A stretch of 57,442 nucleotides of DNA from Bacteroidota bacterium (lineage in GTDB: Bacteria; Bacteroidota; Rhodothermia; Rhodothermales; UBA10348): positions 1-57,442 of the forward strand of contig JADFHF010000023.1 in the NCBI GenBank assembly GCA_022567305.1, read 5' to 3'. Positions 53,451 through 57,442 of the stretch are shown here, one piece after another. Numbering within the stretch: the first letter of the stretch is position 1; every line of letters starts with the position of its first letter. Made by a program: the position numbers and the translations under genes. The notes beneath the pieces are model-generated. The model had not been told where the DNA came from and made no database searches. It worked only from the letters and a program-made list of their open reading frames with translations.

Positions 53451-54671
53451 TTGTTAGTGCCGATTCTTACCGACATATCCACTCTTTACACTTGCAAGCT
53501 GGACGGCGGACAGGACGAAGTTCATCCGATCATCGGAGCAACCATTGCCTGGGAAGATGAAACGATTCAATGGGTAGGGTCCGCGAGAGACGCTCCTGCT
53601 GGACTGGATACGGCTATGCAATACAGTGCCGATGGACAGGTGGTCGTGCCCGGCCTGGTGGACTGCCACACGCATATCGGGTTTGGGGGCTGGCGAGAAG
53701 ACGAATTCGAGCAGCGGATAAAGGGTGCGGGATACCTTGAGATTGCCGAGGCCGGCGGAGGAATCCAAAAAACTGTGCGTCAGACACGAGAAGCAACCAA
53801 CGAAGATCTGACGACCCACTGTCTAGCGGTGCTCGAGGAAATGGTTCGTCTCGGAGTAACAACCGTCGAATGCAAGTCTGGCTACGGACTTTCGGAAGAA
53901 GCAGAGCTTCAAATGCTGAGAATTTATATGTCGCTGAAAGAGCTGCAACCGGTGAGACTGGTTTCGACGTTTCTTGGAGCACATGTGATTCCACCCGAGT
54001 ATTCCGATGATCGAGCCGGATATGTGTCCCTGTTGTGTGATACGCTAATTCCGCAGATCCAGGAGGATGATCTAGCCACCTTCTGCGACGTCTTTGTCGA
54101 AGAAGGGGCTTTTTCTGGAGAAGAAGCCGAAAAAATCCTTCGTTCTGCGCAGGATGCAGGAATGCAATCGAAGCTCCACGCAGATCAACTTTCCGATGGC
54201 GGAGGAGGAGCGCTGGCCGCTCGCCTCGGAGCGATTTCGGCAGATCACCTGGAATACACTTCGACCGCGGGAATCGACACTATGGCCGATGCCGGGGTCG
54301 TCGGTGTGTGCCTCCCGTTTGCCTCGCTCTATCTGAACCAGCAACCGATGCAGGGGCGCAAGTTCGTGCGCGCGGGCGTGCGCCTGGCTGTTGCGACCGA
54401 TTTCAATCCGGGTTCGGCGCCCAGCTACCATCTTCCTCTCGCCATGATGCTTGCCTGCACCATGAGTCGATTTACACCGGCAGAGGCGCTGAAGGGTGCA
54501 ACGATTCATGCCGCTCTCGCACTGGGTCTTGAGAGCTCGGTGGGTTCGATTGAAAAAGGGAAACGTGCCGATTTTGCAATCCTGGACGTTTCAGATGTTA
54601 ATCATTGGATGTATCATTTTCGTTCCAATGCATGCACTCGGACGTTTATCGGCGGCATTCCACAGGATTGA
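53451..54671 (+). CDS. hutI: Imidazolonepropionase
   Basis: A 406-residue zinc- or iron-dependent amidohydrolase that opens imidazolone propionate to formiminoglutamate. Metal ligands are in VPGLVDCHTHIGFGG (H73, H75), with further sites in KLHADQLS and the ATDFNPGS loop. TTG at 53451, touching the hutH stop, and GTG at 53457 are both possible starts; the latter gives a cleaner N-terminus. The next step, formiminoglutamate breakdown (hutG or hutF/G), is not seen before the broken end of this contig segment. Confidence 0.95.
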   Translation: MLVPILTDISTLYTCKLDGGQDEVHPIIGATIAWEDETIQWVGSARDAPAGLDTAMQYSADGQVVVPGLVDCHTHIGFGGWREDEFEQRIKGAGYLEIAEAGGGIQKTVRQTREATNEDLTTHCLAVLEEMVRLGVTTVECKSGYGLSEEAELQMLRIYMSLKELQPVRLVSTFLGAHVIPPEYSDDRAGYVSLLCDTLIPQIQEDDLATFCDVFVEEGAFSGEEAEKILRSAQDAGMQSKLHADQLSDGGGGALAARLGAISADHLEYTSTAGIDTMADAGVVGVCLPFASLYLNQQPMQGRKFVRAGVRLAVATDFNPGSAPSYHLPLAMMLACTMSRFTPAEALKGATIHAALALGLESSVGSIEKGKRADFAILDVSDVNHWMYHFRSNACTRTFIGGIPQD

Positions 54672-54681
54672 GTATGGGCAG

Positions 54682-55167
54682 ATGAAGACTAAGATTTTTA
54701 CAACCGGCGGAACGATCGATAAGATTTACTTTGACGCTCAAAGTGAGTTTTCTGTAGGACGACCACAGATTACGACCATACTCGAACAGGCGATGGTTCA
54801 ACTGCCCTTTGAAGTGGAGGAGCTGTTCCAGAAGGACAGCCTTGATGTTTCCGAAGAGGACCGCGCTCTTCTCCTGAAAAAGGTGAGCGAGGATCCGTGT
54901 GATCACATTATCATTACTCACGGTACGGATACGATGGTAGAGACGGCGCAGGTCCTGGAAGCCGTGACCGACAAAGTGGTCGTCCTGGTAGGATCGCTCA
55001 GTCCGGCTCGTTTCAAGGGTTCGGATGCAGAATTTAATATTGGATTTGCCCTCGGAGCACTTCAAGCGCTCTCCCCCGGTATTTATATCACGATGAACGG
55101 GCGCATATTTCGGCCTGACGAAGTTCGAAAGAACCGGGCTGAAAATCGATTCGAAGCGCTCGACTAA
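54682..55167 (+). CDS. Asparaginase N-terminal-domain protein (single-domain)
   Basis: A 161-residue protein matching only the first half of L-asparaginases. TTGGTIDK (the catalytic threonine region) is near residues 7-14, and HGTDTM (second active-site motif, with T and D) is near 79-84. The C-terminal domain is absent, yet the reading is uninterrupted and stops cleanly before the M14 gene, so it is not obviously a pseudogene. Such stand-alone domains are known in several bacteria; their activity is unclear. It lies 10 bases after hutI. The ATG at 54682 is used; a longer reading upstream is out of frame within hutI. Confidence 0.82.
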   Translation: MKTKIFTTGGTIDKIYFDAQSEFSVGRPQITTILEQAMVQLPFEVEELFQKDSLDVSEEDRALLLKKVSEDPCDHIIITHGTDTMVETAQVLEAVTDKVVVLVGSLSPARFKGSDAEFNIGFALGALQALSPGIYITMNGRIFRPDEVRKNRAENRFEALD

Positions 55168-55181
55168 AGACCCACACGCTT

Positions 55182-56279
55182 ATGTTTTTCAGACGACTGA
55201 CGTCGGTTATTGCTTTTTGCCATTTGGCTTTGATGGTTCCTACAAATGCCCAGGATATTGGCCGGGAAACTGCCCAGGACGACTTCGATCTGGACCGATT
55301 TGCGTTCGCTCCTGGAATATCGGTGAGCCCCGACATTCCGACTCCTGAATCGTATTTGGGCTATGAACTGGGAACCCAGTACACGCTCTATGCAGACGTT
55401 GTCGGGTATATCCGTGCCGTTACCGAGGCCTCAGACCGAATCTCGATGCACGAATATGCCCGGACGTATGAAGACAGGCCCCTTCACTACCTGATTATTA
55501 CATCCCCCAACAACCACGCCCGCATTGAGACCATTCGCGAGAACAACTTGAAGCTCGCCGATCCGTCCTTGTCCGCTGCCGAGGCTAGCGATCTGATCTC
55601 GTCGCAGCCCGTGATTCCATGGCTAAGCTATAACGTGCACGGTAATGAGCCGTCGAGCACGGAAGCCGCCATGCAGGTTATCTATCAACTGGCGGCCAAT
55701 CAGGACGCTGCCACACTAGAATTATTGGACGCAGCCGTGGTCATCATTGACCCCACCATTAATCCCGACGGGAGGGATCGGTATGTTTACTGGTACCGGT
55801 CAATGCAGAGTCACGTTCTCAATCAGAATCGAGCAGACATCGAACACTCCGAACCCTGGCCCGGTGGCCGGACCAACCACTACTGGTTCGATTTGAATCG
55901 GGATTGGGTTTGGTTGGTCCATCCGGAGTCGCGAGGACGTCTTGAGGCTTATGGCAACTGGTTGCCTCAGATTCACGTGGATTACCATGAACAGAGTGCC
56001 AATAGCAACTACTTCACCATGCCCGGTCAGACTCCCAGAAATCTGAACCTACCAGACGAATATGAACCATGGGCTGAGGTGTTTGGACAGGCCAACGCCC
56101 GCGCGTTTGACGAGGCGCAGATCAACTATTTCACGCGCGAGTCATTCGATTTCTTTTATCCGGGATACGGCTCGTCTTATCCGAGCAATTTGGGAGCCAT
56201 TGGGATGCTGGCCGAGCAGGGTGGCGGTTCCGGCAGTGCAAGAGCTGTTGAGACGGATGATGCAGTGGATTGGGTGTGA
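55182..56279 (+). CDS. Secreted M14 zinc carboxypeptidase, truncated at the 3' end
   Basis: A peptidase with an N-terminal signal peptide (RRLTSVIAFCHLALMVPTNA). Zinc ligands H153 and E156 are in NVHGNEPSS and H269 is in HVDYHEQ, with a possible catalytic Glu (E345) in LAEQGGG. Family members are typically far longer (several hundred residues more, including a large C-terminal region). The reading frame ends at residue 365 in VETDDAVDWV, which does not continue the family, at the junction with the AsnC fragment. It follows the asparaginase by 14 bases. Only the coding to about 56250-56265 is trustworthy. Confidence 0.85.
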   Translation: MFFRRLTSVIAFCHLALMVPTNAQDIGRETAQDDFDLDRFAFAPGISVSPDIPTPESYLGYELGTQYTLYADVVGYIRAVTEASDRISMHEYARTYEDRPLHYLIITSPNNHARIETIRENNLKLADPSLSAAEASDLISSQPVIPWLSYNVHGNEPSSTEAAMQVIYQLAANQDAATLELLDAAVVIIDPTINPDGRDRYVYWYRSMQSHVLNQNRADIEHSEPWPGGRTNHYWFDLNRDWVWLVHPESRGRLEAYGNWLPQIHVDYHEQSANSNYFTMPGQTPRNLNLPDEYEPWAEVFGQANARAFDEAQINYFTRESFDFFYPGYGSSYPSNLGAIGMLAEQGGGSGSARAVETDDAVDWV

Positions 56280-56474
56280 CACGGCCCCTGGGTCGATCAC
56301 GGCTCGGTAGCCGGAGATTATGCCGACTCGTTCGAGTCTCCGTACTCGTTCTGCCACTGCAGGAGCGGTCAGGCCGACCGATTCGGCGAGTTCGGCGAAG
56401 CTCATTCTCGCGTTGTCCTGGAGAAGCGAGAGGATCAACACATCGATGTCGTCGGAGCTTGCACGTTTAGGCAT
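56250..56474 (-). CDS. AsnC/Lrp family regulator, C-terminus missing
   Basis: Starts at ATG 56474 (MPKRASSDDIDVLILSLLQDNARMSFAELAE). The winged helix-turn-helix is complete (AESVGLTAPAVAERVRRLERVGIISGYRAVIDPGAV), but the RAM ligand-binding domain that should follow is absent. From about 56280 downward the frame runs into sequence that, on the other strand, codes for the M14 protein. The residues HPIHCIIRL just past it may still belong to AsnC, so the real break is somewhere in 56250-56280. By family it would regulate amino-acid genes. It is divergent from the downstream genes. Confidence 0.72.
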
Positions 56475-56511
56475 CTCATCGCCTCTCATCCGGAAATAGA
56501 TTGGTTTAGAA

Positions 56512-56539
56512 AGTATAACAGAGAAATAACATCGTAAAA
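56512..56539 (-). promoter_or_regulatory. Possible promoter of the AsnC/Lrp gene
   Basis: On the minus strand, TTTTAC (56534-56539) and TATACT (56512-56517) are 16 bases apart and resemble -35 and -10 boxes, about 38 bases before the AsnC start. The -35 box is weak. The same stretch might serve divergent genes. Confidence 0.3.
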
Positions 56540-56609
56540 CGGTGTGTTGCGAGACATTATGCCGCATAAGGGTGTCGCATCTTCTGGCCGGTGGCGCCAT
56601 CATGGAGAC

Positions 56610-56762
56610 ATGACCGCACAGACCCAAATCTCCTTTGACCGGCTTCTAAACGAGTGGAACCGCCACGAAGCACTTCGCCGTCTGGGCGCGGACGTTCAAA
56701 CTCTTGGCCAGAGCCGATTTCAACTCGACGACGCCCGCCGAGAATTGCGCTCCGCGGCCTGA
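56610..56762 (+). CDS. Small hypothetical protein
   Basis: A 50-residue reading (MTAQTQISFDRLLNEWNRHE...) with a helix-rich, charged sequence and GC-rich codons like its right-hand neighbours. I do not recognise a family. It is divergent from the AsnC gene and lies 51 bases before the oxidoreductase start. It may be real or a chance open frame in GC-rich DNA. It belongs to the segment right of the suspected junction. Confidence 0.4.
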   Translation: MTAQTQISFDRLLNEWNRHEALRRLGADVQTLGQSRFQLDDARRELRSAA

Positions 56763-56813
56763 TTCCGAACACTCTCAATTCGGGTTAGCCAATGGCTGCA
56801 CTAGCGTGCGTTC

Positions 56814-57442
56814 ATGGGGAACAATACGCGCACCGAATTTCGAACTTGCCCGCTGTGTGAGGCAACCTGTGGACTTCAGATCGAGATCGAAGGCAACGCG
56901 GTCAAGCGCATCCGAGGCGATCGCGATGACGTGTTCTCACACGGATTTATCTGCCCCAAGGGGTCGACTCTGAAGCAACTTCACGAGGACCCCGACCGAC
57001 TACGCACTCCGCTGATCAAGCGAGACGGCGTACACGAGCCCGCAACGTGGGACGAGGCGTGGGCGGCGGTCGCGGCGGGGCTCGGACCACATCTCGACGG
57101 TGACCGCAACGCCATCGGTGTCTATCTCGGCAATCCCAATGTGCACAACCTCGCGGCCGGGTTGTTCAACCGGGTCGTGCTCAAAGCGCTGGGCACCCGC
57201 AACATCTACACCGCGTCGACCGTGGATCAGATGCCGCGCCACACCTCGTCGGGTTATCTTTATGGCGATCCGTTCGCGATGCCGGTGCCGGACCTTGACC
57301 GCACAGACCATCTGCTTATGCTCGGCTCCAACCCCGCAGCTTCGAACGGGTCACTCTGCACCGCACCCGACTTCTGTGGCCGACTCGACGCCATCCGCGA
57401 GCGGGGAGGCTCGGTAATTCTGGTCGACCCGCGCCGCACCGA
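56814..57442 (+). CDS. Molybdopterin-dependent oxidoreductase, 5' part only
   Basis: An open frame from ATG 56814 that runs off the window end (about 209 codons seen). The N-terminal [4Fe-4S] cluster ligands C12, C15, C19 and C47 are present (TCPLCEATCG, FICPKG), followed by the start of the bis-MGD-binding domain (LGNPNVHNLAAG, LMLGSNPAASNG, VDPRRT). This is a formate dehydrogenase/nitrate reductase superfamily protein; its substrate cannot be told from this part. Coding here is distinctly GC-richer than the first 56 kb, and the sequence resembles actinobacterial-type genes in composition only. It lies beyond the suspected chimeric point. Confidence 0.85.
   Translation, partial: MGNNTRTEFRTCPLCEATCGLQIEIEGNAVKRIRGDRDDVFSHGFICPKGSTLKQLHEDPDRLRTPLIKRDGVHEPATWDEAWAAVAAGLGPHLDGDRNAIGVYLGNPNVHNLAAGLFNRVVLKALGTRNIYTASTVDQMPRHTSSGYLYGDPFAMPVPDLDRTDHLLMLGSNPAASNGSLCTAPDFCGRLDAIRERGGSVILVDPRRT

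Follow-up and report, generated by a model that had tools for sequence, protein, structure and literature searches.

Two genes that meet head-on near the right-hand end of a contig, both cut at one point (about 56244-56262), raise the question of whether this arrangement exists in a living genome or came about when the sequence was put together. The window (the whole stretch of DNA analysed here, 57,442 bases) is the entire contig C97, and base 57442 is the contig end. C97 is one of 115 contigs of a draft metagenome-assembled genome (G000) of 3.76 Mb, which is rated 95.6% complete and 0.01% contaminated. A preliminary description had taken an assembly chimera to be the simplest reading and had offered a real recombination or an inversion end as the alternative.

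The gene to the left of the join encodes an M14 zinc carboxypeptidase, and its open reading frame (55182-56279) has 365 amino acids, compared with about 870 codons when complete. Its match to PF00246 (Peptidase_M14; E 1e-16) is confined to positions 4-136 of the 286 in the profile. All 19 other relatives compared have the gene as a single stop-free frame, of about 850-1000 amino acids in nearly every case; the closest relative (71% identity), from the same-family genome G006, is intact. Homology stops abruptly within the catalytic domain at residue ~361 (...VETDD; base ~56261-56264): the base after the VETDD codons still fits a conserved glycine of the relatives, and beyond it the homology is gone. 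The N-terminal part of the peptidase (55182-56262, plus strand; about 361 codons) is a host gene cut at the join, and sequence comparison places the left side of C97 with the genome's own family and order. Judged by its relatives, this order is probably Rhodothermales, to which Salinibacter and Rhodothermus belong. As a separate observation on this region, a frame between imidazolonepropionase (hutI) and the M14 gene (54646-55167) encodes a stand-alone asparaginase N-terminal domain (173 amino acids, PF00710), with the C-terminal domain absent.

On the opposite strand, the N-terminal half of an AsnC/Lrp-type regulator (56244-56476, minus strand) runs into the same point. Its profile matches are confined to the AsnC-type helix-turn-helix (HTH; PF13404, E 4e-17, and PF13412), and its homology to Acidimicrobiia proteins ends at 'PIHCIIRLNS' (base ~56244), where relatives of ~150-160 amino acids extend further; the ligand-binding C-terminal half is missing. 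The loss of the C-terminal portion of the peptidase and of the ligand-binding half of the regulator at a single point, as first described, is thus borne out by the limits of the profile matches and of the homology. The bases GAGACGGATGATG, which had been proposed to fit both reading frames, do lie at 56250-56262. Judged by the ends of the M14 and Lrp homology, the stretch that fits both genes comprises about 16-19 bases (gttgagacggatgatg, perhaps preceded by agc; 56244-56262), and both frames reach a stop codon soon past it.

The sequence to the right of the join (56263-57442; 1180 bases, GC 0.60) is an alien contig tail that comparison and composition mark as actinobacterial (Acidimicrobiia-like). 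The turn to GC-rich composition in the preliminary description is found again: GC is 0.62 over the last 800 bases, and over the rest of the window it peaks at 0.58 for the same block length. Besides the regulator, the tail encodes the N-terminal 209 amino acids of a molybdopterin oxidoreductase resembling the formate dehydrogenase alpha subunit (56814-57442, plus strand; PF04879, PF00384 and TIGR01591, E 6e-23; GC 0.63), which is cut by the contig end. The best relatives of this fragment are from Acidimicrobiia (up to 73% identity, in Acidimicrobiales), and Acidimicrobiia together with other actinobacteria make up most of the 80 loci listed. Among the relatives of the host, matches within the same family reach at most 32% identity and a copy at 52% occurs in one distantly related genome of the order; no further copy of the oxidoreductase was found elsewhere in the genome. 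The regulator is 53-55% identical to the closest Lrp proteins of those actinobacterial genomes that carry the oxidoreductase.

On these comparisons, the right side of C97 is actinobacterial and the left side is of the genome's own family, which puts two lineages on one contig. The DNA nearest to the tail is only 72% identical (G060; plasmids, 64-72%), which indicates that the donor genome is not among the sequences searched. A comparison of Lrp-oxidoreductase gene order found no Lrp relative in the 80 oxidoreductase loci compared, so that the internal continuity of the right-hand 1.2 kb is unproven. The caution against transferring anything inferred from this 1.2 kb to the organism on the left remains valid.

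For a false join, one would expect the rest of the peptidase gene elsewhere in the assembly. A genome search with the C-terminal region of the M14 protein from the closest relative gave the result that we regard as decisive: an orphan C-terminal M14 half on contig C82 (G000:C82:64524-65864, minus strand), which is 65% identical to the corresponding end of that ortholog (E 4e-199). This frame has no N-terminal part, and the only candidate N-terminal partner is the half on C97; the next closest M14 copies of the genome, on C55 and C59, are full-length paralogs. Beyond the M14 half, C82 continues for 838 bases as unrelated alien DNA (G000:C82:65862-66699; L108:2839-3676), with a GC content of 58% overall and up to 63% in the coding piece, which encodes a fragment of a subtilase (S8). 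The subtilase fragment has no counterpart among 59 relatives, and the alien stretch has no second copy elsewhere in the genome. The peptidase gene is thus divided over two contigs that each carry an alien end of their own. Speaking against a chimera, about 47 codons of the peptidase are found in neither contig, and the halves on C97 and C82 therefore do not overlap.

The two peptidase halves are also what a real, recent insertion might leave behind. Actinobacterial DNA would have split the M14 gene by illegitimate recombination, replacing about 140 bases of the peptidase, and the tails of C97 and C82 would be the two ends of an island whose middle was not assembled or binned. Each half does lie beside alien DNA that is rich in GC (60% and 58% overall; about 63% within the coding pieces), and the middle of an island would be expected to be absent from a fragmented draft. 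Searches with the C82 tail gave no lineage assignment. However, the alien Lrp gene is likewise truncated at the join, and both contigs terminate within 1.2 kb of this point. Neither tail carries an integrase or transposase within the outer 1.2 and 0.8 kb that are visible, where the open reading frames are the Lrp gene, the molybdopterin oxidoreductase and the subtilase fragment only.

What weighs further against an island is that faults of this kind are found at other contig ends, too, which we sampled region by region for most contigs of the draft. At the end of C36 (L275, last ~1.1 kb), a gamma-glutamyltranspeptidase (GGT) breaks off at profile position 449 of 512, and its frame runs on into the C-terminal part of a type I phosphodiesterase; past this lies a dihydrodipicolinate-synthase-like gene of 64-69% GC. 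The GGT tail that matches it begins at profile position 442 and is found close to the end of C44 (L299), with unrelated genes next to it. By its sequence, GGT is evidently a second gene divided over two contigs in the manner of the M14 peptidase, and its double-sided pattern involves other alien genes. For neither pair of contigs, C97 with C82 and C36 with C44, was a common stretch of at least 14 bases found that would close the gap.

Single-sided joins, with donors that likewise do not fit one inserted island, were found at three further ends. At the end of C21 (L267), a truncated ECF sigma factor lies head-on with DNA of 68% GC. C28 starts (L239:1-110) with the first ATP-binding piece of UvrA (36 amino acids) fused in frame to an unrelated protein that has a GH114-associated domain, and C57 starts (L198:1-330) with about 330 bases of a sugar dehydratase gene for polysaccharide synthesis, at 30% GC. 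The last ~460 bases of C84 (L160) hold a PQQ-repeat-like fragment of 65% GC that lies head-on with an FG-GAP-like frame; the matches are weak, and this end is probably another contig-end chimera. Across the alien caps, donor GC ranges from 30 to 68%.

Composition gives a rough guide to how widespread such ends may be. Among terminal 300-base blocks, 9 of the 129 (ends sampled without selection) were GC outliers, compared with 16 of 774 interior blocks (odds ratio 3.6, Fisher p = 0.005); the outliers are not all proven joins, and the scan detects only donors that differ in GC. The excess disappears within the first kilobase of the contig, and most contig ends examined are normal in composition. 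Eight contigs that are composition outliers or suspects (C4, C13, C29, C38, C40, C51, C92 and C95) were not counted among the joins, as no cut gene was demonstrated at a join there. At the start of C13 (L224:1-211), an N-terminal fragment of HypD adjoins a low-GC stretch, and may be either an alien cap or native.

Several unrelated donors and repeated joins at contig ends are more than a single island, recombination or inversion can account for, and we consider an insertion into the M14 gene highly improbable. False extension at places of weak support would explain the unrelated donors, the genes cut on both sides and the position of the joins within the last 0.1-1.2 kb of their contigs. We therefore hold, with high confidence, that the right-hand end of C97 is a false join from library preparation or assembly, an artefact and not biology; with the other half of the peptidase on C82 and similar joins at further contig ends, the chimera reading of the preliminary description is supported. 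C97 would have lost support inside the M14 gene during assembly, and the contig would then have been extended by 1180 bases from a co-occurring actinobacterium, most likely via a chimeric read or a short overlap of 16-19 bases. We infer that the join lacks substantial support from read pairs or long reads.

A chromosomal inversion or recombination end, in a single organism with an actinobacterial segment already in place, would suit the two truncated genes lying head-on and the short stretch that they share. It would also require a reciprocal junction, and this is absent: on C82, the remaining peptidase half lies next to another alien sequence and not next to the C-terminal half of the Lrp gene. 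The oxidoreductase also has no other copy in the genome, and we give this explanation almost no credence. Natural ends of two genuinely short genes, a peptidase and a regulator, would agree with the stop codons that both frames reach, but this reading is almost certainly wrong, given that homology breaks off inside a catalytic domain and before a ligand-binding domain and that the peptidase's missing second half lies by itself on C82.

Chimeric contigs in metagenome-assembled genomes are a problem addressed, for instance, by GUNC (PMC8201837). Like such contigs, C97 joins genes of two lineages at a point where the genes are cut; unlike them, it carries its alien part as a short cap at the contig end (0.1-1.2 kb for the caps described here), too small to shift the contamination estimate, and the value of 0.01% indeed failed to reveal these caps. 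The locus resembles a genomic island within a gene in that a host gene is split, with foreign DNA beside each half, but differs from one in its several unrelated donors, in foreign genes that are also cut, in the lack of a mobility gene and in the involvement of several contig ends.

The M14-Lrp join is thus very probably not a real biological feature, and the result is one of data quality: the final 1.2 kb of C97 and the other alien caps need to be removed before this draft is used to infer gene content, horizontal transfer or gene fusions. Taken at face value, the in-frame fusion of GGT and phosphodiesterase on C36 would pass as a novel fusion protein.
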